The position numbers and the translations under genes are program-made. Below, in pieces: positions 6,239 through 26,186 of a stretch of 29,845 nucleotides of DNA. Every line of letters starts with the position of its first letter. Within the stretch, counting starts at the first letter, position 1. Below the pieces are notes generated by a model. That model saw only the letters and a program-made list of their open reading frames with translations, was not told the DNA's origin and searched no databases. The stretch is taken from positions 1 to 29,845 of IMG/VR virus record IMGVR_UViG_3300044742_000092; one strand, given 5' to 3'. This stretch comes from a virus.

Positions 6239-6598
6239 TCACACCGGGACCGACTTGAACGTGTGGGTCACCGGGTTGGAGTTGCCGATCCCTTCGTCCC
6301 CCACGGCGGAGGTGATGACGGGGCGTTCGATGACGTCGATGGTCGTGTCGGCGCCCATCGCGGTGACGATCGCGGCGAGGGTGCCTGCGGTCCAGGCGGT
6401 GCGGGTGAAGTTGGGGGCGGTCGCGGCGAGGGTGATGTTGGCGGTCTGTTCGACGATGAGGGCGCCGGTGTCGGCTCGGAGGAGCTGGACCTTGGCGGTC
6501 CACCCGGAGGCGAGGTTGGCGACGGTGACCCGGTCGGCTTCGTAGAGAGTGAATGGCTGCCCGGGTAGTTCTTCGTTGACGTAGTAGGTGGTGGCCAT
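6239..6598 (-). CDS. Putative virion protein, last gene of the late block (119 aa)
   Basis: ATG at 6598 starts MATTYYVNEELPGQPFTLYE. The sequence is beta-rich: ADRVTVANLASGWTAKVQLL, ITLAATAPNFTRTAWTAGTL, and VTHTFKSVPV at the end. This layout (default strand, Val/Leu strands carrying modifiable loading terms, then T-A-G-T-L) resembles the N-terminal domain of baseplate upper or receptor-binding accessory proteins, but the resemblance is loose. It begins eight bases after the basic repeat protein and is the most promoter-distal late gene, as expected for a tail or surface component. Confidence 0.6.
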   Translation of the reverse strand: MATTYYVNEELPGQPFTLYEADRVTVANLASGWTAKVQLLRADTGALIVEQTANITLAATAPNFTRTAWTAGTLAAIVTAMGADTTIDVIERPVITSAVGDEGIGNSNPVTHTFKSVPV

Positions 6599-6607
6599 CG
6601 GCCCCTC

Positions 6608-7723
6608 TCATCCGGTGGGTCGGTTGCGCAACTCGGCGGCAGGGCGGAAGGCTTCGTCAGCTGCCATCCGCCAGTATTTGACTGGGGCGGGCCGGTACGA
6701 CACGGAGACAGCAGGCCGGTAGTAGGTGACCGCGGCGAGAAGCGACAGCGGAACGGGGGCCGCACCGGGGATGGTCGGTACCCACCGGCAGTAGACCCGC
6801 GGGGCGTGGTAGGTGACGGTGAGCCGTGACCGGCGTCGGCGTGCCGGGACAACCCTCGGTGGGAACGCTCCCGCGCGGGATGGTCGCCGTGTGCCGATCC
6901 ACTGGTAATGGTGGGCGGGAGTCCGGTAGCGGTGGGTGAGGTGTGGTGCTCGGCGGCGGGGCGGTGCACACGGAGGGGCTTTCGTCGTGACCGTCGGGGT
7001 TTTTGTCGGGACCCACTGGGGACGTCGGCATGGGGTCCGGTAGCGCTTCGCCAGGTGCGGGCGGGGATGCCTGGTCGGCGGGATCGGCGGTGCCTTGGTG
7101 GCGACGGTTGCGGTCTTGGTCGGCACCCACTGCGGCCGGCGGAACCGGATGCGGTAGGGCTTGGTGAGCCGGGAGCGGAGCCGACGGGCGGGGACGACCG
7201 GCGGCAGCGGGACGATCGCACGAGCAGGCCGGGGGCCGGCGATGAAGACGACGCGGACCGGGCGCGGCCGGTATTTCTTGGTGAGTCGGCTCTTGAGGCG
7301 ACGGGCCGGGCTGAACGGCGGCAGGACCGGGATGCCCCGCGGCGGTCGCGGGCCTGCGGTGTAGCGGGGCCGCGGGACCGGGAGCCGGTAGCGCTTCGCC
7401 AGGCGCATCCGAGGATGGCGCGGCGGTGAGAACGGCGGGGCCTTCGTGACGGGCGCAGCAGCGGTGAGGGTCGGCACCCATTGGGGCCGGCGGCCCGGGG
7501 CCCGGTATTTCTTCGCGAGCCGCATCCGCACATGACGCGGCGGCGGTGCGGGGATCCCGGTGCGGGGCCTCGGGCCGGCGATGAAGACAGGCCGGGGCGG
7601 GCGGACCTTGTACCGTTTCGTGAGCCGAGATTTAGGGCGCCTCGCTCCGATGGGCGTGGGGATCGCTGGCGCCTTGGCGGTGACGACTCCGCTGCTGGGT
7701 CGGTACAGCAGCAGAAGCGACAT
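6608..7723 (-). CDS. Highly basic eight-repeat protein, no acidic residue in first ~355 residues (371 aa)
   Basis: ATG at 7723 follows AAAGGGAT by about eight bases. After MSLLLLYRPSS the protein consists of about eight repeats of 36-39 residues. Each opens with R(R/H)xxxxRLxKxYR, then a short basic link, then either F-I-A-G-P-R-P or Q-W-V-P-T-K-T, and ends in a Pro/Val linker. Asp and Glu are absent until MAADEAF about 16 residues before the end, and Asn is also missing from the repeats. Conserved aromatic residues in every unit, G/C-rich third positions and a proper ribosome site argue that it is translated in this frame. It sits among tail-surface genes. Polyanion binding (cell-wall polymers or DNA) is inferred from charge only. 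Confidence 0.8.
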   Translation of the reverse strand: MSLLLLYRPSSGVVTAKAPAIPTPIGARRPKSRLTKRYKVRPPRPVFIAGPRPRTGIPAPPPRHVRMRLAKKYRAPGRRPQWVPTLTAAAPVTKAPPFSPPRHPRMRLAKRYRLPVPRPRYTAGPRPPRGIPVLPPFSPARRLKSRLTKKYRPRPVRVVFIAGPRPARAIVPLPPVVPARRLRSRLTKPYRIRFRRPQWVPTKTATVATKAPPIPPTRHPRPHLAKRYRTPCRRPQWVPTKTPTVTTKAPPCAPPRRRAPHLTHRYRTPAHHYQWIGTRRPSRAGAFPPRVVPARRRRSRLTVTYHAPRVYCRWVPTIPGAAPVPLSLLAAVTYYRPAVSVSYRPAPVKYWRMAADEAFRPAAELRNRPTG

Positions 7724-7755
7724 CGGCTATATCCCTTTCGTTTTCACGGCGCGGG

Positions 7756-8475
7756 CTAACGACGTCGCAGGCCCAGCCGCGCTCGCCCTCCAGTCCTAGG
7801 CGACCGGGTCTGGATGGCTTGGAGCTCCAAAGCGATGATCGACGCCTGACCGGATGTCGCCCACGAGGCGGAGGCGGACACCTCGAGGATGCCGTTGGCG
7901 TCGACAACACCCGGTAGCCATTGGACCTCACCACCACGCGTCGGGGTACTCCCGGCGACGTCGGACAGCTCAGCCCACGGTGCGGCGCGGGGCGTGGTGA
8001 CCTCATTCGCGCGGTGAGACACGAACACCACCCACCGGTTCGCGACCGACAGAGGTCGAGGCAAGGTGAGGGTGACAGACGTCGAGTTGGCGTTGGTGCC
8101 GACCGCGCGCACGATCGGCTGCGCCCCCCACACCCCGGCGACTTGGAGGATCGCCCAGCCCGTCCCAGTCGACGGCGTGTTCCCCGTTTCGGTGTAGGTG
8201 ACAGCACCGTTGACGGGGGCCGGCCCGCACGGTGCGGTGTCGCCGAACACACGGCGCACATCGGTCGGGTGCGCCTGGATGATCCGATTCGTCCACACGA
8301 CTGACAGGCCAGTGGGGGTGGACAGCGGCGCGGTGAGAGTGCCGTGAGATGAGTCGTTGAACGACACGAGGACCCGTCCGCCGATGACGGCCGGGGACAA
8401 CGTCGCGGTCGGATAGCTGGACAGGTCGGTGTTCGTGTAGGCGGCGGCCACAACGACCGGCGTGCCGATGGGCAC
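7756..8475 (-). CDS. Tail or surface protein, paralogous to N-terminal domain of the tail-tip protein (239 aa)
   Basis: GTG at 8475 starts two bases after the upstream stop. The whole protein is one beta-sandwich-like unit: YTNTDLSSYPTATLSPAV, GWAILQVAGVW, FVSHRANEVT and a final SASWATSGQASIIALELQ. The same landmarks occur in order in residues ~1-210 of the 889-residue tail protein (ATSYVTASVSPAAR, SWHVIQVTGH, HAVHRANESQ, WTTSARWQAQGIEVKI). This suggests a duplicated adhesin or lectin-like module. The last ~15 residues are Arg-rich. Likely on the virion tail and possibly host binding. Confidence 0.7.
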   Translation of the reverse strand: MPIGTPVVVAAAYTNTDLSSYPTATLSPAVIGGRVLVSFNDSSHGTLTAPLSTPTGLSVVWTNRIIQAHPTDVRRVFGDTAPCGPAPVNGAVTYTETGNTPSTGTGWAILQVAGVWGAQPIVRAVGTNANSTSVTLTLPRPLSVANRWVVFVSHRANEVTTPRAAPWAELSDVAGSTPTRGGEVQWLPGVVDANGILEVSASASWATSGQASIIALELQAIQTRSPRTGGRARLGLRRR

Positions 8476-8477
8476 GG

Positions 8478-9266
8478 TCAGTCCCTGACGACAGTGAAGT
8501 GGAAGATGAGGTCGTCTGTCGCGGCGGCGTCGTAGGCGCCTCGGGCGACCGCGATCCCGTAGATCGCCGAGTCACCGGAGGCGCACTTGTAGGGCATGGC
8601 GCATGGCCCGCCGAGCCAGGTGCCGATACAGGTCCGGTTCGAGCTGCCCTGGCTGTAGCTGTTCGCGGTGGAGAAGTTGACCCAGCCGAGCGGGACCGCG
8701 GTCGCGAGGTTGGCGTCTGTGATGTCGTAGACCCCGTTGTCTGCGTTCACCAGGGTCGGGGTGTTCTGGAAGAAGGCGACATCGATGTCGAGCACGCTGT
8801 TGGCGTCGTCGGTGAACAAGGCGCCGGCGAGGGTGCCGGTGCGGCCGTTGCCGATCGCCGCCGATGTGAGGGTCATCACCGATCCGAGCCGGTCGCCCGC
8901 GGCGTAGACGGCGGTGTCGATCGTCGGCGTGACTGTGATCAGCAGTTGGTCGAGGCGGGGGACGACCATCTGCGCGCCGGAGCGATCCAGCCAGATGGTG
9001 ACCAGGTCACCATCAGCGGACATCGCGGTAGGCACCGCCGTCGAGGCGCGCCCGCCTTGTCGGACCGGGTTCCCGGCGAGCGCCGCGTCCTCGGCGACCG
9101 AACCCTGGTGCGCCATCCCGTTGGCGTCGACGAGGAGAGCTGTCGCGGAGCCGTCCGCCGAGTAGAGCAGCTTCATCAGCTGCGCTTGGCGGCCTGAGCC
9201 GATGTCGTCGGTCGCGACGACGTAATCGGTGAGACCGCCATTGTCAACCGTCACATCATCGGCCAC
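8478..9266 (-). CDS. Putative virion structural protein (262 aa)
   Basis: GTG at 9266 gives MADDVTVDNGGLTDYVVATD followed by DIGSGRQAQLMKLLYSADGS. The D-D-I-G-x-x-x-x-Q-x-x-K-L-x-x-x-A-D-G stretch is a common N-terminal module in phage structural genes next to the tail and lysis modules. Residues ~70-230 continue as beta-rich sequence with VMTLTSAAIGNGRTGTLAGA and a CIGTWLGGPCAMPYKCASGD loop with three Cys, ending DDLIFHFTVVRD. No clear ribosome site; coupled to the gene upstream. Role inferred from family resemblance and position. Confidence 0.7.
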   Translation of the reverse strand: MADDVTVDNGGLTDYVVATDDIGSGRQAQLMKLLYSADGSATALLVDANGMAHQGSVAEDAALAGNPVRQGGRASTAVPTAMSADGDLVTIWLDRSGAQMVVPRLDQLLITVTPTIDTAVYAAGDRLGSVMTLTSAAIGNGRTGTLAGALFTDDANSVLDIDVAFFQNTPTLVNADNGVYDITDANLATAVPLGWVNFSTANSYSQGSSNRTCIGTWLGGPCAMPYKCASGDSAIYGIAVARGAYDAAATDDLIFHFTVVRD

Positions 9267-9299: not shown

Positions 9300-9782
9300 C
9301 TAGGCCAGTTCGACGACGTACAGGCAGCCTGACACCGACAGCGGATCGGCTGGGGTAGAGAGCATCCGCACGACGATCGTGGTGTTCGCCTGCGTGGCGC
9401 GGGGCCACAGCTCCTCGGGCCAGAATTCACGTAGCGGGACCCGGACGTTCCAGCCGAGGGGGACGAGGTCGACGGTCGTGCCGACCGACGCGATGGTGGT
9501 GTTGTTGACTTCGGCGGCGAACCCGGCTGCGGCGTCGAGCGGGTTGAGAGCGCCGGGCGTGGGGGTGGTGCCACCGGAACCGGAGGTGGTGTGGCCGCGC
9601 CGGATGAGGAGACGCAGGAATTCCTCCTGTGCGTCACCGGCGTCGGAGGTGCCCCCGACGTTGTCGAGGGTGAGGCCCATCAGCGCGACCGGGCGATCGT
9701 CGGCTGGGGAGATCTCGAAGAAGTCCTGAGACGCCGAAACGGTGACGTTCTCGAAGGGGACCGTGTAGACGCGTCCGATCAT
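9300..9782 (-). CDS. Conserved actinophage virion-associated protein (160 aa)
   Basis: ATG at 9782 has AAGGAG ten bases upstream. MIGRVYTVPFENVTVSASQD, then F-E-I-S-P-A-D-D-R-P-V-A-L-M-G-L, SDAGDAQEEFLRLLIRRG, TTSGSGGTTPTPGALNPLDA and AAEVNNTTIASVGTT form a pattern I know from many actinobacteriophage structural or hypothetical genes. It is probably a small beta-rich tail or capsid accessory protein. It begins a subcluster after the holin-like genes. Confidence 0.8.
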   Translation of the reverse strand: MIGRVYTVPFENVTVSASQDFFEISPADDRPVALMGLTLDNVGGTSDAGDAQEEFLRLLIRRGHTTSGSGGTTPTPGALNPLDAAAGFAAEVNNTTIASVGTTVDLVPLGWNVRVPLREFWPEELWPRATQANTTIVVRMLSTPADPLSVSGCLYVVELA

Positions 9783-10770: not shown

Positions 10771-10853
10771 TCGTCGTCATGCCCGCCGTGAACAACCCAC
10801 CAGGAGGCCCGGTCGATGTGTCCCTTGAGCCACAGCCAGAAGGTGCGGATCAT
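10767..10853 (-). CDS. 28-residue microprotein in the lysis cassette
   Basis: ATG at 10853 overlaps the stop of the DUF1906 lysin (ATGA), and its TGA overlaps the GTG of the next gene. The sequence is MIRTFWLWLKGHIDRASWWV then VHGGHDDE, amphipathic and Trp-rich with an acidic end. Support is the exact start/stop overlaps at both ends and absence of any other frame in this gap. It may act mainly to carry ribosomes to the next gene. Confidence 0.5.
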   Translation of the reverse strand: MIRTFWLWLKGHIDRASWWVVHGGHDDE

Positions 10854-11563
10854 TGCGCCCAGGGACAGGGGTAGCCGAACAGGCAGGTGCGGTCGCCTGG
10901 CCGAGGATTCTGGCCCCAGTCAGGAAGAACGATGTCGTTCTGGTCGTAGAGGCCGGGCGCCCATTGCGGGTAGCTCTTGGCGGTCCGTTGGATGATGGCG
11001 GCCCGGTTGCTCACCCCGGGGACCGGACCCCATGAGGTAGCGGCGGTCTGCCAACCGACCCGGATCAGCCCGTTGGCGAAGCATTGGTCGATGATGTCGC
11101 GGGCCCCGTAGATGCCTTGCGGCCCGCAGCCACCACCGTCGTTGAACCCTCGCATGTACTCCAACGCGCCCGGACGCTGAGCGGCGCTGTAGTCGACGTC
11201 GAGGGACTGGATGAGGGGGCGTTCGTCGGGATGGCCGAGGACGCGGGCTTGAGCTCGGGCGTTGGCGCCGTGTTGTTGTCCAAGGCGGTACCCGCCGAGG
11301 GCCGAACCTTTCTGGTATTCCCAGTTGAGAACGACGCTCAGGCCGTGAGCCCGGGTCCGGTCATACTCCGCCTTGTGGATGACTTTCCAGTCCTGGTCGG
11401 GGAGAGACAGGTAGCGGGACACTCCGACGACCCCGGCCGCGATCATCTGGTCGAGCTGGACGTCGGTGGGACGCCATCCGGAGTAGTCGAGGACTCGGGC
11501 TGGGCCGACCGCGGCCGGGACGACGCCAAGGCGGAACCCGGCCCGCCGTAACCGGCCGGCCAC
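10850..11563 (-). CDS. DUF1906-type glycoside hydrolase-like lysin (237 aa)
   Basis: GTG at 11563 lies two bases after the amidase stop. After an Arg-rich start, VLDYSGWRPTDVQLDQMIAA and GVVGVSRYLSLPDQDWKVI match the (beta/alpha)8 opening of DUF1906 (Rv2525c-like) proteins. VLNWEYQKGSALGGYRLGQQ, LIQSLDVDYSA, GIYGARDIIDQC, WQTAATSWGP and LYDQNDIVLPDWGQN continue it; Asp26, Glu and the DVD acidic residues line the expected active site. It ends with a Cys pair in CLFGYPCPWAQ. Such domains are fused or adjacent to phage endolysins of actinobacteria and are thought to cut cell-wall glycan, although the substrate is not proven. Confidence 0.85.
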   Translation of the reverse strand: MAGRLRRAGFRLGVVPAAVGPARVLDYSGWRPTDVQLDQMIAAGVVGVSRYLSLPDQDWKVIHKAEYDRTRAHGLSVVLNWEYQKGSALGGYRLGQQHGANARAQARVLGHPDERPLIQSLDVDYSAAQRPGALEYMRGFNDGGGCGPQGIYGARDIIDQCFANGLIRVGWQTAATSWGPVPGVSNRAAIIQRTAKSYPQWAPGLYDQNDIVLPDWGQNPRPGDRTCLFGYPCPWAQ

Positions 11564-11565
11564 GA

Positions 11566-12465
11566 TCAGGCGAGTACGACAGGATGCAGGTTGACGGTCT
11601 CAGCGAACTTGGTGACCGTCGCGGCAGCGATGGCGGCGATGGTGACCGCGTCGAGGGTGGCGCCAACCGTCATCCCTTCGATGGTGTCGATGACGGCCTG
11701 TCGGATGGCGTCCAGGTCGACACCGGCTAGGAGCGCTTCGATCCGTGCGAGCGCCTGGTTGTTCATCTGTGCGAAGGCGCGGGTGTCGCCGATGGCCTGA
11801 CCGGTGCCGAACGTCGGCCAATCGGGGAGCGATGGGTCCGACAGGTAGGGAGCTACGGCGGCGAACTTGGCATCCAGGTAGGCGCGGTCCTCTGGGGTCA
11901 TGGGTTCCTCTTTCAGGCGGGCAGCTACGGCGGCAATCAGGTTCGGGACTTCACGGATCTTCCCCGGGCCGGGACAGATGTGGGCTGCGTTCGACCACGA
12001 CGGCACCTGATGGTGGTAGCCGATCCCGGTCCAACCGCCGGCCGGGTCGGCGTAGGCCAGGACCGGCGGGATGCCGTGGGTGGCACAGGCCCACACGAGC
12101 CAGTCTTCGAGCGTCTGACGTTGCCCGAGGTCGGTCCAGGACTTCTCCCACGGCGAACCGAGATCGCTCGTTTCGATGGAGATCGCACCGCAGAGGACGC
12201 CGGCACGGTAGAAGCTGTTGGCGGCGGACTGGCTGTCGGCGCGGGTGCCGGTATCGATGTACTGGCCGAGCCGACCACGCCCGTTTGGCGGCCCGCATTC
12301 CAGCTGAAAGTGGGCTTCGGTGTCGGCCCCCTGCCAGTAGCGGTACGACGATTCGAGGGTGTTGTTCCCGCCGTTGGTGTGCAAGACGACGAGGACCGGT
12401 CTGATGCGAGGCTGCGTCGCGGATTCCGGCAGGAGCATCTGGGCGGCGCCCGAGTAGAGCGCCAT
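11566..12465 (-). CDS. N-acetylmuramoyl-L-alanine amidase endolysin (299 aa)
   Basis: ATG at 12465 shares one base with the stop upstream (TGATG). Residues ~20-185 are an Amidase_2 domain: VLVVLHTNGGNN (zinc His29), AHFQLECG, AISIETSDLGSPW, GIGYHHQVPSWSNAAHICPG with His162 and Cys164 near the zinc site. It would hydrolyse the bond between N-acetylmuramic acid and the stem peptide. A linker (EPMTPEDRAYLDAKFAAVAP) and a helical region with IARIEALLAGVDLDAIRQAV-type repeats follow instead of a known wall-binding domain, possibly a coiled-coil oligomerisation tail. Followed by a second lysin and holin-like genes. Confidence 0.92.
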   Translation of the reverse strand: MALYSGAAQMLLPESATQPRIRPVLVVLHTNGGNNTLESSYRYWQGADTEAHFQLECGPPNGRGRLGQYIDTGTRADSQSAANSFYRAGVLCGAISIETSDLGSPWEKSWTDLGQRQTLEDWLVWACATHGIPPVLAYADPAGGWTGIGYHHQVPSWSNAAHICPGPGKIREVPNLIAAVAARLKEEPMTPEDRAYLDAKFAAVAPYLSDPSLPDWPTFGTGQAIGDTRAFAQMNNQALARIEALLAGVDLDAIRQAVIDTIEGMTVGATLDAVTIAAIAAATVTKFAETVNLHPVVLA

Positions 12466-16199: not shown

Positions 16200-18119
16200 T
16201 CAGCGGCTGCCGTTGCGCAACGTGTACCGGTCGAACGCGCGACGCACCGCAGTCGGATCCGAACCGACGGGAAGGTTGATGGTGACGTTGGCGCCGGGAG
16301 TCCCCCAGCTGGACCAGCCCGGCCGGGCCGCCATCTTGTCCTGGTCCTCGTTAGAGATGACCTGCTCACCACCGTGGACGACCGCCATCTGCGCCTTGCC
16401 CCTCGGGCCGGGCACCTCGCCGCCCTGCGCGAAGTGGAGGGTGCCCGTCGTGTTGTAGCCGGCACCACCCTTCGCGATGATCTGGGCGTTGATGATCGCG
16501 TTGCGAGTCCGGGTCAACGACTGCAACGCAGCCTCCGCAGCCGACACGCCGAGCACCTGTGTGATCAAGGCCGCGTTACGGGTACGGCTCGTGCTGTTCA
16601 GCAAAGCCTCTGCCGCCGCCACCTGACCTTGGTCGATCAACGCCTTGATCTCCGACACCTTCTCCGGCGGGATGTTGTTGATCTGGGCGATGTGATCGAT
16701 CAACGCGGCGCGCGTCGGCCCCTTCAACGTGGCGGCCTGCTGTAGGGCGGACTGGTTGAACAGCTCGATCGTCTGGGCGCCAGAGAGCGTCGCCCCGTTG
16801 GCCTTCAAGGTCTGCTCGTAGACGGCCACGGTCGCGTCGGCGAAGTCGATGGCGGCCTTCGCGCCATCCCGGTAGATGTCGTTCAGCTTCAACTGGTCGT
16901 CTTTGGCGTCCTTTACAGCATCGTCGTAGCCATTGACGAACCCGGTCAGCTTGTCCTGTGCCTCGGCCAAGGCGAAGGTCGAGTCGGACGAGGCGCGGGC
17001 AGCGTTCGCCTGATCCTTGACGGCTTGCGACGCGGCGGTGGCCGATGCCACCGCCGCGTCGAGCGCGGCGTTGTAGTCGCGCTGCTTGTCGGCCGCTTCC
17101 TTCGCTGCGTCGGCAGCGTCCTTCGTGACGTCGGCCATCGTCCGGGCCTTCGGGATGTAGCTGGCGAGGCGATCCTCCAAGAACTCGGCGCTCTTCTTGG
17201 AGTCATCGATCTTGGTGATGAACTGATCCCAGGAGTCAGCCTGGAAATCGATCTTGATTCCGGTCAGCTTGCCGAACAGACCGCCGCCGCCTGCGTTGGT
17301 CCCGGTCTTGTCCTCGATCTCTGCGATCTTCTGGCCCATCTTGTCGAGCCACTTGACCACGCCAACCGATGCCTCAGCAGCCCTGATCATCGCCGGAGCA
17401 AGAACGCCGCCCAACTCGAGCGACAGACCTCCCACCGCGTCGCCAGCGTCGTCCATGGCGTCACGAAGAGCCTTCGCCTTCGCGAGCTCTTCCGGGTTGA
17501 TGGCCTGGGCGTCACCGACGGCCTTCATGTCGGCCACGATCTTGTTGGAGCCTTGGCCGATCAGTTCGGCCATGTTCGTCCAACCCTTACCGAACAGCTG
17601 CGACGCCACCGCCGCCCGCTTCGCCGGATCCTGGATGCTGTTGAGCGCGTCGACCGCGTTCAAGAAGGTCTGCTGGACATCGACCGCACCCGACGCCGTC
17701 CGAGCGATCTCGATCCCGGCGGCCGCGAAGGCTTGCGGCGTGTTCTGCGCCGCCTTGTTCATCTTGTTCAACGCACCCTCGACATCAGACCCGGAGATCC
17801 CGATGTCCCCTGCCACCTCGATCAACCGAGACGAGGCGTCCACCGAGAGGCCGGTGGCGTCCGCGAACTTCCCTGCCGCCAGCGCCGTGTTCTCGAAGGC
17901 GGAGATCGACTTCGCTGCGAACCCGGCCACCGCGACCGCAGCCCCAGCGATCGCCGCCGGCGACGAAGCGATAGCGGAGAAGGCACCACTGGCCCCGGCC
18001 TTGAGCTTGCCGAACCCACCCTCTGCGTTGCTGACGTCGGTCTTGAGCTTATTGAGCTGGGAGGAGGCACTGCCGGTGACGACATCGACAATGAGCGAGA
18101 TCTTCTCGGTGAAGGCCAT
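16200..18119 (-). CDS. Tape measure protein (639 aa)
   Basis: ATG 18119 directly follows the TAG of the upstream gene. The start MAFTEKISLIVDVVTGSASS and long Ala-rich helices with a hydrophobic segment (AIASSPAAIAGAAVAVAGFA) are typical. Residues ~330-420 are coiled-coil-rich (AAKEAADKQRDYNAALDAAV). The region KGPTRAALIDHIAQINNIPP through SRTRNAALITQVLGV carries the tape-measure repeat of short D/H-I-x-x-I segments. It ends with a Gly-rich motif and NLPVGSDPTAVRRAFDRY near residue 616, a common tape-measure terminus. At about 1.5 A per residue the tail would be near 95 nm. It sets tail length and may aid DNA ejection. Confidence 0.92.
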   Translation of the reverse strand: MAFTEKISLIVDVVTGSASSQLNKLKTDVSNAEGGFGKLKAGASGAFSAIASSPAAIAGAAVAVAGFAAKSISAFENTALAAGKFADATGLSVDASSRLIEVAGDIGISGSDVEGALNKMNKAAQNTPQAFAAAGIEIARTASGAVDVQQTFLNAVDALNSIQDPAKRAAVASQLFGKGWTNMAELIGQGSNKIVADMKAVGDAQAINPEELAKAKALRDAMDDAGDAVGGLSLELGGVLAPAMIRAAEASVGVVKWLDKMGQKIAEIEDKTGTNAGGGGLFGKLTGIKIDFQADSWDQFITKIDDSKKSAEFLEDRLASYIPKARTMADVTKDAADAAKEAADKQRDYNAALDAAVASATAASQAVKDQANAARASSDSTFALAEAQDKLTGFVNGYDDAVKDAKDDQLKLNDIYRDGAKAAIDFADATVAVYEQTLKANGATLSGAQTIELFNQSALQQAATLKGPTRAALIDHIAQINNIPPEKVSEIKALIDQGQVAAAEALLNSTSRTRNAALITQVLGVSAAEAALQSLTRTRNAIINAQIIAKGGAGYNTTGTLHFAQGGEVPGPRGKAQMAVVHGGEQVISNEDQDKMAARPGWSSWGTPGANVTINLPVGSDPTAVRRAFDRYTLRNGSR

Positions 18120-20229: not shown

Positions 20230-20640
20230 CTAGGCGGTGTTGTGAATCAGGAACCGCACAGCCGCCCCGTAGGCCCCGTAACCGGCGACCTCTTCGAAGC
20301 CGAGCTGGCGGCAGTCCATGGCGACGGCGTTGATGTTGGCTAAGCCGAGCGTCTTGTCGTTGTCGACCGCGGCGACGATCGACTGCGGGCCGTCGTCATC
20401 GATGTACGGGAACAAGCTGATGGCCTGGCGGTCGACCACCGACGAGACGAGGATCACCACCTCGAGCTCGAGGCGGATGACGCCTCGCTGCATGGTCTGG
20501 CGGTAGTCGATGGCCGGCGGGAGGATGAAGGCGGCCGGGTACTCGGCGGTGCCGGGGACGTGGTCGAACACCCGCAGCCCGGCGATAGACCGCAGCTGCT
20601 GCTCGAGGCCGGCGATGATGTCGACGAGGCGAGGACTCAT
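20230..20640 (-). CDS. Tail terminator/minor capsid-like protein (136 aa)
   Basis: ATG 20640 overlaps the connector stop (ATGA). MSPRLVDIIAGLEQQLRSIA opens with a helix and continues GLRVFDHVPGTAEYPAAFIL, IRLELEVVILVSSVVDRQAI, DDDGPQSIVAAVDNDKTLGL and AAVRFLIHNTA. The pattern helix, strand with V-F-D-x-x-P, then E-L-E-V-V-I-L-V and a N-I-N-A-V-A strand is that of tail-terminator (gpU-like) proteins, located correctly between connector and tail tube. It should cap the tail. Confidence 0.7.
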   Translation of the reverse strand: MSPRLVDIIAGLEQQLRSIAGLRVFDHVPGTAEYPAAFILPPAIDYRQTMQRGVIRLELEVVILVSSVVDRQAISLFPYIDDDGPQSIVAAVDNDKTLGLANINAVAMDCRQLGFEEVAGYGAYGAAVRFLIHNTA

Positions 20641-21245
20641 GCGACGAGGGAGAGGCGGTAGCCGGTGAGGAGTTGGGCGACGTCGGGGTCGAGCCGACCG
20701 GAGATCCGCATCGGCCCGAACTCGCCCCATCCGGACACACCTTCGGGGGATTTGCGGCGTTGCAGGATGCGGGATACCTGCATCTGGCAGGCTTGGCTGA
20801 CCGGCTCAGGGATGGCAGGCCAGCCCCACGTACCGGTCACCTGCACGAGCCCGATGCGCCCCGGGTAGTAGGGGCAGGGGAAGACCCGGTTCCCGGTCGA
20901 GTGCAGACTCCGGTACGGCTTCGCTTCGGGTGACGCCACGTTGAGCGGCAGGAGCTGGTAGTCGGCGGCCGCCCAGGTCGTCTCGAAGGTGCCGTCCTGG
21001 TTTTCGTCGGTCTTGACCGCGGTCACCGTCGTCACGTCGGTCAGGTCGACGCATTGGCCATCGTCGGAGTCGAACACGCGGGCAGTCCCAGCCGTGGTCG
21101 CCCAGAACTGCCGTCGGCAGTAGTTGTCGATCCACCGGGAGACGGTGGTGACGATGTTCTCGATACGGGAGTCGTCGAGGTTGTCGGTGAGCCCAATCCA
21201 ACCCTTCGCCTCAGGAAGGGTCGCGTACCCATTGACGATGGCCAA
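20637..21245 (-). CDS. Head-tail connector protein, gp6-like (202 aa)
   Basis: The frame starts at TTG 21245 after a GAGAGGG stretch; no ATG precedes the conserved residues. MAIVNGYATLPEAKGWIGLT, then DDSRIENIVTTVSRWIDNYC, RRQFWATTAGTARVFDSDDG, DYQLLPLNVASPEAKPYRSL and VTGTWGWPAIPEPVSQACQM are landmarks of the phage gp6-like head-tail connector: an N-terminal helical pair with E/K, a C-R-R-Q-F turn and a central G-x-W-G-W. It joins portal and tail. The gene is preceded by two lipoprotein genes, which is unusual. Confidence 0.8.
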   Translation of the reverse strand: MAIVNGYATLPEAKGWIGLTDNLDDSRIENIVTTVSRWIDNYCRRQFWATTAGTARVFDSDDGQCVDLTDVTTVTAVKTDENQDGTFETTWAAADYQLLPLNVASPEAKPYRSLHSTGNRVFPCPYYPGRIGLVQVTGTWGWPAIPEPVSQACQMQVSRILQRRKSPEGVSGWGEFGPMRISGRLDPDVAQLLTGYRLSLVA

Positions 21246-23121: not shown

Positions 23122-23697
23122 CTATGGCTTCTTGTTGCCTTCGCGCAGAGCTGACAGACGGCAAGCGTTAGAGCAGAACCGTGACCCCGCTACCCGACTG
23201 GCCTTGTTCCAGTAGTGGGCTCCGCACCCTTCGCACACCTGCTCCACGCGACGTGGTCTCGTCTGCGGGAAGTCGTGGATGCGCTGATGCTCTTCGTTCG
23301 TGACGACGAGCAGATTCTCGGGACGGTTGTCGTCCTTCACGCCGTTGATGTGGTGAACGTGCTCATCGGGCAAAAGCGGATGCCCAAGCAATCGCTCCAC
23401 GACGAGCCGATGCTCAAGCCGCCACTTTTTGATGCCAACCCGCACGACCGCGTAGCCCTGCTGGTTGATGTACCGGGTGACCTTCGTCCGTTCCACACCG
23501 CGCTGCGCTTCGTTCTTGCAGGCGTGAGAACAGAACCGACCCTCACCGTTAGCGAGTTGGTTCGCTTGGAAGTAAGAGACAGTCCCGCACTGTTCGCAGG
23601 ATCGGGACTCGCCAGTCTTCTTGCGGCCGTTGCAGTAATAGCAACGCTTCCGCTTGCCGTACGGATGATCACATAGTGGACAGCTGGGGATCTCCAT
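23122..23697 (-). CDS. HNH endonuclease inserted after the major capsid gene (191 aa)
   Basis: ATG 23697 follows GGGGG. The N-terminal ~65 residues carry several Cys pairs (CPLCDHPYGKRKRCYYCNG, CEQCGTV, CSHAC), then YINQQGYAVVRVGIKKWRLE and the HNH core EHRLVVERLLGHPLLPDEHV-HHINGVKDDNRPENLL, in which His115/His116, Asn118 and a later His137 are seen. A final CEGCG...CSNAC ribbon closes it. Its codons are visibly less G/C-biased than the flanking structural genes, which fits recent arrival by homing. It lies between capsid and decoration-like genes. Confidence 0.93.
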   Translation of the reverse strand: MEIPSCPLCDHPYGKRKRCYYCNGRKKTGESRSCEQCGTVSYFQANQLANGEGRFCSHACKNEAQRGVERTKVTRYINQQGYAVVRVGIKKWRLEHRLVVERLLGHPLLPDEHVHHINGVKDDNRPENLLVVTNEEHQRIHDFPQTRPRRVEQVCEGCGAHYWNKASRVAGSRFCSNACRLSALREGNKKP

Positions 23698-25019: not shown

Positions 25020-26186
25020 CTAGGCGGAGAGGCGGCGCTGCATGGCGACGTATCGCGCGTACTGGTGCGCCATGTCGTCGTCGGGGGTGTCACAGAGCGC
25101 GGCGATCTCACGCAGGTCATCGCCGATCCAGTCCAGGATCTCGCGGTTGACCAAGGAAAGGCCCTTGCCCTTGGGATGCGATGCGCGCACGGCGACCACA
25201 CGACGCATCATCTGCAACAGATCATCGACCCCGACCAGGGTGACGGCTGCTTCGTCAACGACCTTCACTTCACCGCCTGCCGCCCGCAGATCAGGCACAT
25301 CCCGATCGGCGTCACGCAGGTGGGTGGCGAGGTGTTCGTACACGTCGTGGCGGTCGGCGTCAGGGACAGACTGCCCCTTCGCCCCGTTCAGGACGGCGAT
25401 GCCGGCGACGAGCGCCCGGACGTTGGCGGGGCCGTCGATGCCGTGGTGATGCGGGAACCGGTAGGAGGCCTTGGCGGTGGGATCCCCGTCGCACCAGGCG
25501 TACACGGAGCGGAGCGCGTCGACGCCGGCGTCGGGCGGGATGGCGTCGACGATGGCGGCGGCGTCCCAGGCGCGGGCGGTGATCTCCGTCGAGTGGGAGC
25601 GAATCGCCTTGGTGGACACGGTCGCCGTCCTCTCGCCGTTGCGGAGTGCGTAGGAATCGATCGCACGACGAACGGCGGCTGGGTCACTGCCGTTCGGCAG
25701 GTTGACAGTCACGGTGTTCGCGTCTGACTTGGCGGAGAGGGTGCGGGTGTTGACGCCGGCGCCGATCAGAACCGGGGACACCTCATGAACCTTCAGCTTC
25801 GAGAGGAAGCGGACCTTCTGGCCGTCCTGCTCACCGAAGCTGTACTCGACCGGGTCATATCCGTAAGACCACTCGCCGAGCCCCTTATCGGCGAGCGCCT
25901 TGACCGTGGCGAACGTGTCGCGGCCGTGGGTGGTGTCCATGAAGAACTGGCCTTCGAGGACGGCCTGTTTGGCGGTGGAACGGATCGAACCGAGGCCGAC
26001 GGGCAGCTGCCCGTCCCAAGAGGCGTGGCCGTAGGCGGAGATGGGGACGGTGGCACCTTCGTCGAACGCGTCGGGCTGGGTGACGTCGCCGTCTTTGTCG
26101 ATGACCCCGAAGGTGCTGAAGACGGCGCGGACCTCGCCGCGGGCTTCGTCCTTCACCTCTAGGCGGGTCAGTTGCTTGTAGTCCAT
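25020..26186 (-). CDS. Prohead protease fusion with embedded tape-measure-like motif and C-terminal domain (388 aa)
   Basis: ATG 26186 shares one base with the portal stop. Residues ~1-155 match the HK97-type prohead serine protease: EVRAVFSTFGVIDKDGDVTQ, YGHASW (His54), GEWSYGYDPVEYSF (Ser107) and VHEVSPVLIGAG. Residues 158-186 (VTVNLPNGSDPAAVRRAIDS and following) match the tape-measure C-terminus at 21 of 28 positions. A domain at ~205-300 (YRFPHHHGIDGPANVRALVA) is common after phage prohead proteases, and the last ~70 residues are helical (HPKGKGLSLVNREILDWIGD). It should mature the capsid by cleaving the delta domain. Confidence 0.85.
   Translation of the reverse strand: MDYKQLTRLEVKDEARGEVRAVFSTFGVIDKDGDVTQPDAFDEGATVPISAYGHASWDGQLPVGLGSIRSTAKQAVLEGQFFMDTTHGRDTFATVKALADKGLGEWSYGYDPVEYSFGEQDGQKVRFLSKLKVHEVSPVLIGAGVNTRTLSAKSDANTVTVNLPNGSDPAAVRRAIDSYALRNGERTATVSTKAIRSHSTEITARAWDAAAIVDAIPPDAGVDALRSVYAWCDGDPTAKASYRFPHHHGIDGPANVRALVAGIAVLNGAKGQSVPDADRHDVYEHLATHLRDADRDVPDLRAAGGEVKVVDEAAVTLVGVDDLLQMMRRVVAVRASHPKGKGLSLVNREILDWIGDDLREIAALCDTPDDDMAHQYARYVAMQRRLSA

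Follow-up and report, generated by a model that had tools for sequence, protein, structure and literature searches.

The window, by which we mean the whole stretch of DNA analysed here, is an IMG/VR viral contig of 29,845 bases with a GC content of 67%. Its late genes lie on the minus strand and lead from the terminase, portal, protease and capsid genes through those for the head-tail adaptor, tail terminator, major tail protein and tape measure to P0008, after which the block continues with two lysins and a run of small genes; an integrase gene lies beyond the late block on the plus strand. The terminase is 35-38% identical to its closest counterparts, which come from phages whose hosts are Arthrobacter, Microbacterium, Rhodococcus and Streptomyces, suggesting that the host of this temperate siphophage is probably an actinobacterium. 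In viral contigs, 30 relatives of the capsid protein were found, 44-70% identical to it. An inserted HNH endonuclease gene (23122-23697, minus strand) separates the capsid gene from the conserved head gene that follows. At 10850-12465 on the minus strand, two cell-wall enzymes are encoded in tandem, one of them a lysin of the Rv2525c glycoside-hydrolase-like type and the other a protein with a weak match to amidase-2 (E = 0.004). The tape measure protein ends in a 29-residue stretch (VTINLPVGSDPTAVRRAFDRYTLRNGSR; 16200-16286, minus strand) that recurs with 72% identity at 25629-25715 on the minus strand (E = 2e-7); there the copy (VTVNLPNGSDPAAVRRAIDSYALRNGER) belongs to the head maturation protease and sits just past its protease domain. 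A motif common to a tail protein and a head protein was unexpected. At the end of the contig (1-138), a 12-bp tandem repeat (GCCGCATCCCCG) is present in 11.5 copies with 92% matches.

The gene P0001 shares its strand and the late block with the TerL, portal, capsid, tail and lysis genes and is placed after the lysis genes, between P0005 and P0004 (Table 1). P0005 is 29% identical to the N-terminus of P0008 over ~210 amino acids (E = 5e-11 to 1e-13) and carries a short basic stretch (RSPRTGGRARLGLRRR) at its C-terminus; P0008 is, from the position of its gene, a probable large tail protein. Neither P0005 nor P0004 gave a family match at a useful score; no relatives of P0008 or P0004 were found in viral contigs, nor any of P0008, P0005 or P0006 in phages. 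A beta-rich AlphaFold model of P0005 was of low confidence (pLDDT 35) and could not be used for fold matching (best Foldseek E = 0.016, TM about 0.1).

Table 1. Genes and repeat cores at the P0001 locus, in window coordinates
Feature	Position	Strand	Remark
P0001, acid-free polycationic repeat protein	6608..7723	minus	371 aa; stop codon included
Shine-Dalgarno-like GAAAGG	7734..7739	minus	10 nt before the P0001 ATG, read directly
P0004, small late protein	6239..6598	minus	119 aa; 9 nt after P0001
P0005, paralogue of P0008 N-terminal domain	7756..8475	minus	directly upstream of P0001
P0006, acidic late protein	8478..9266	minus	no family match
P0007, acidic late protein	9300..9782	minus	no family match
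Endolysin, Rv2525c glycoside-hydrolase-like (PF08924)	10850..11563	minus	marks lysis block upstream of P0001
P0008	13527..16196	minus	889 aa; directly after tape measure gene; N-terminal domain paralogous to P0005
Repeat core 1, A subtype	7571..7645	minus	RLTKRYK...VFIAGPRP
Repeat core 2, W subtype	7466..7540	minus	RLAKKYR...QWVPT
Repeat core 3, A subtype	7349..7423	minus	RLAKRYR...RYTAGPRP
Repeat core 4, A subtype	7232..7306	minus	RLTKKYR...VFIAGPRP
Repeat core 5, W subtype	7115..7189	minus	RLTKPYR...QWVPT
Repeat core 6, W subtype	7001..7075	minus	HLAKRYR...QWVPT
Repeat core 7, divergent W subtype	6887..6961	minus	HLTHRYR...QWIGT
Repeat core 8, divergent W subtype	6770..6844	minus	RLTVTYH...RWVPT

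The open reading frame described by the initial annotation is present and lies on the minus strand, which had been left unstated. Its product contains 74 Pro, 68 Arg and 18 Lys, with a pI of 12 and a net charge of +83. As had been noted, acidic residues are confined to the last ~16 residues: Asp and Glu occur at positions 356, 357 and 364 only, leaving the first 355 positions without a negative residue, and the single Asn, at position 367, lies outside the repeats. The other late proteins tested in the window are mostly acidic, the exceptions being P0005 (pI 10.6), a lysin and the portal protein. The ribosome site that had been proposed is found as a Shine-Dalgarno-like element. The proposed in-frame coupling to tail genes did not hold up, since the neighbours on the same strand are non-overlapping, 32 nt away upstream and 9 nt downstream, which indicates tight operon packing rather than overlapping coupling. 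The maximum 19-residue Kyte-Doolittle mean is 1.4, with no transmembrane-like or otherwise strongly hydrophobic segment, and a charge-hydropathy comparison places P0001 clearly on the disordered side. AlphaFold, with only four self-derived rows, did not predict a structure for the repeats (pLDDT 53, pTM 0.10).

The repeats were located by their L-[T/A]-x-x-Y cores, eight of which occur in P0001, at residues 33, 68, 107, 146, 185, 223, 261 and 300, in agreement with the about eight units counted at the outset. Successive cores are separated by 35, 39, 39, 39, 38, 38 and 39 residues, and for lags 39 and 38 the periodicity z scores of the protein were 8.6 and 7.3, where shuffled sequences reached at most about 4.8. 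An Arg is present six residues ahead of the core in all units; the Tyr is conserved, and Trp occurs in five of the eight. Two subtypes can be told apart: units 1, 3 and 4 belong to subtype A (GPRP), and units 2, 5, 6, 7 (IGT) and 8 (VPT) to subtype W, so the strict alternation between them that had been described is not observed.

With its ORF GC content of 0.72, its Pro/Arg-rich composition and its lack of any homologue, P0001 carries the hallmarks of a spurious reading frame, and three overlapping ORFs, long ones, are found on the minus strand at this locus. We therefore considered a non-functional, frame-shifted or antisense shadow in GC-rich DNA, an explanation that the following results largely refute and that we regard as very improbable. 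In the P0001 frame, GC content by codon position is 0.69/0.67/0.81; this profile had been put forward as a check, and GC is highest at the third position of the P0001 frame, where it is close to that of most neighbour genes, versus 0.67-0.68 in two overlapping minus-strand shadow ORFs. Identity between units at codon positions 1, 2 and 3 is 0.60, 0.55 and 0.41, compared with 0.32, 0.29 and 0.35 expected by chance, so that third positions have diverged almost to saturation although the amino acids are retained. The third position is the most variable between units (within-codon permutation, p = 0.0006). Values of dS between units range from 0.7 to 1.9 and those of dN from 0.28 to 0.63, and in each of the eight unit pairs tested dN is the smaller of the two, by a clear margin except for units 4 and 5. 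Amino-acid identity between units is 0.42 in the P0001 frame, as opposed to 0.26 and 0.27 in the other frames. Together, third-position divergence, dN<dS and the better amino-acid conservation in this frame indicate that the repeat is old and has been maintained as protein. P0001 is thus a genuine gene in the frame given here, with purifying selection on its repeats, and the earlier case against a frame artefact is strongly supported.

The absence of acidic residues was examined at the level of dinucleotides. GA at codon positions 1 and 2, which would give GAN codons, occurs in none of 355 codons, where ~10.5 are expected from the positional base composition; the naive probability of this absence is 2e-5, a value that treats the non-independent repeats as independent. 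Across codon junctions (positions 3-1), the same dinucleotide occurs 30 times. The lack of acids is therefore no by-product of base composition, and acidic residues in P0001 have been selected against.

P0001 is an orphan at the sensitivity of the sequence searches used, which covered family databases, phages, plasmids and viral contigs, collections from which near-identical records may be missing. A profile search with one repeat unit had been suggested; family searches with P0001 gave no match in Pfam, PHROGs or PDB sequences. No match was obtained by tblastn in 50,697 phages or 72,556 plasmids, and one peptide-pattern and three DNA-pattern scans of 2.9 million viral contigs revealed no relatives. 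The DNA patterns were the W-cassette, the M-x-LLLL-YRP start and two cores at 39-residue spacing; the last two gave 5 and 20 matches, respectively, all of which were attributed to chance. Among 28 records sharing the capsid, no relatives of P0001, P0008 or P0004 were found, and literature searches on acid-free or polycationic phage repeat proteins returned nothing relevant among the titles and abstracts listed.

A parallel came from a sister phage, G002 (IMGVR_UViG_3300044257_000011), whose capsid protein is 63% identical and whose second gene downstream of the capsid gene is 73% identical to that of the window. Between its capsid and head-tail adaptor genes lie tandem paralogues, P0010 and P0009 (L003:8001-10602), with beta-type domains that are 47-50% identical. 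P0009 (L003:8692-10602), directly before the adaptor gene (PHROG 442, E = 6e-11), combines such a domain at its N-terminus with an acid-free basic tail of 329 residues built of strict 20-residue repeats (period z 10.2). Among the 648 genes called in the GC-rich contigs and phages examined, P0001 and P0009 have the longest acid-free stretches, 355 and 329 residues, followed by one of 146 in a tape measure protein. Like P0001, P0009 thus has a long basic acid-free stretch with an internal repeat and is encoded close to virion genes. It differs in its Ala/Thr/Gly-rich repeats of 20 residues, as opposed to Arg/Pro-rich repeats of 38-39, in the fusion to a beta domain and in its location between capsid and adaptor. 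We detected no homology between P0001 and the P0009 tail, the best BLASTP match having an E value of 0.54 over 20 amino acids. The P0009 tail is also more hydrophobic and predicted to be folded, so the two may not work alike. The window's own capsid-adaptor interval (adaptor at 20637-21245, PHROG 442) contains no P0009-type gene, and P0004 showed no similarity to the N-terminus of the G002 adaptor. Comparison of P0008 with the P0009 beta domain gave a weak signal (best z 3.2, a value reached by 4 of 500 shuffles), by which homology of the P0005/P0008 beta domains with those of P0009 and P0010 is only suggested.

The initial annotation had proposed a polycation on the virion surface or tail tip that docks to anionic cell-wall polymers or DNA. 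Late expression and a surface-type neighbourhood are supported by context; the presence of P0001 in the virion, its partner and its ligand are inferred. Our tentative reading, held at somewhat less than even confidence, is that P0001 may be an elongated and mostly disordered polycation on the virion surface, with affinity for anionic polymers. Each ~38-residue unit would present a cluster of Arg and Lys together with a conserved Tyr (and a Trp in five) on a Pro-rich backbone. Since Asp and Glu are absent (as is Asn in the repeats), internal salt bridges would not form and all of the charge would be free for binding. Placed on the virion exterior and possibly held there by its neighbour P0005, which is a possible partner or anchor, the protein might make many weak contacts, through which the particle would bind, multivalently and with low specificity, to anionic polymers on the host envelope or in the surroundings; this might lengthen the stay of the particle at the cell surface ahead of specific receptor binding. 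The late-operon context and the adjoining paralogue of the P0008 N-terminus are consistent with a surface polycation; its main support is the acid-free tail that G002 carries on a surface-type domain in its head-neck block, by analogy and not by homology. The tail tip in particular is unsupported, because the neighbours of P0001 form a post-lysis late accessory module and not core tail genes, and the analogue in G002 lies in the head-neck block. As P0001 lies after the lysis genes and away from the core tail genes, it could also be a non-structural late gene or a moron-like one.

Other functions would draw on the same features of the sequence. A nucleic-acid-binding polycation, protamine- or histone-H1-like, that is packaged with or bound to the genome and condenses DNA or is ejected with it, would suit the pI, the charge, the acid-free Arg/Lys/Pro-rich repeats, the late gene and the predicted disorder of P0001. 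We nevertheless consider it unlikely, as Tyr/Trp cassettes and a fixed unit length exceed the needs of charge neutralisation, the gene adjoins the P0008-N-terminal paralogue and not capsid-interior genes, and in G002 the acid-free stretch occurs as the tail of a protein with two domains. A late cationic accessory that perturbs the envelope, displacing ions from wall polymers or membranes and so aiding the two lysins, would fit the place of the gene downstream of both lysin genes (amidase-like and glycoside-hydrolase-like) and of a possible membrane protein. Three other genes intervene, however, there is no transmembrane-like segment and no export signal is apparent on reading the P0001 sequence, so that we give a role in lysis little credence. 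Even less probable in our view is an intracellular host-takeover protein that acts on ribosomes or RNA in the manner of a multivalent proline-rich antimicrobial peptide. The Pro-Arg-Pro motifs of the repeats (PRPRY, PRPP) resemble such peptides (PMC11678341, PMC11549390), but the likeness is one of composition, with no known processing and with a different unit length and context, and a translation inhibitor expressed from the late structural block would hurt the phage.

Should P0001 be on the virion, it would represent a multivalent polycation encoded by a phage and selected for the exclusion of all negative charges. It would then allow one to test directly whether phage adsorption to bacteria with anionic wall polymers includes a selected stage of nonspecific electrostatic adhesion, and would show that composition can preserve a virion trait even as the sequence is replaced entirely, which hides such a trait from homology searches. 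It is tempting to speculate, although we hold this to be rather doubtful, that acid-free cationic repeat proteins recur in this phage lineage as a functional class, recognised by charge and repetition and not by sequence, which arose independently in sister phages and is attached to beta-type surface modules as fibres for electrostatic adhesion or anchoring.

Among known systems, the accessory head and tail fibres and decoration proteins of siphophages resemble P0001 in that its late gene lies near a module of the P0008-N-terminal type; unlike them, P0001 showed no recognisable fibre, lectin or decoration domain in searches of Pfam, PHROGs and PDB sequences. Basic tails of the histone-H1-like, HupB-like and protamine-like kinds are Lys/Arg/Pro-rich, acid-free and repetitive, and P0001 is likewise a very basic, acid-poor, repetitive chain. 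It departs from them in its Tyr/Trp cassettes and its place in a late operon, and has no match to the HU, H1 or protamine families in Pfam or PHROGs. Apidaecin, oncocin and other proline-rich antimicrobial peptides (PMC11549390, PMC6160386) share Pro-Arg-rich motifs with P0001, and some insect precursors are polyproteins. No test pointed to homology with P0001. These peptides are secreted and processed, whereas P0001 is a phage late protein of 371 amino acids whose repeats are built around Tyr/Trp cores.
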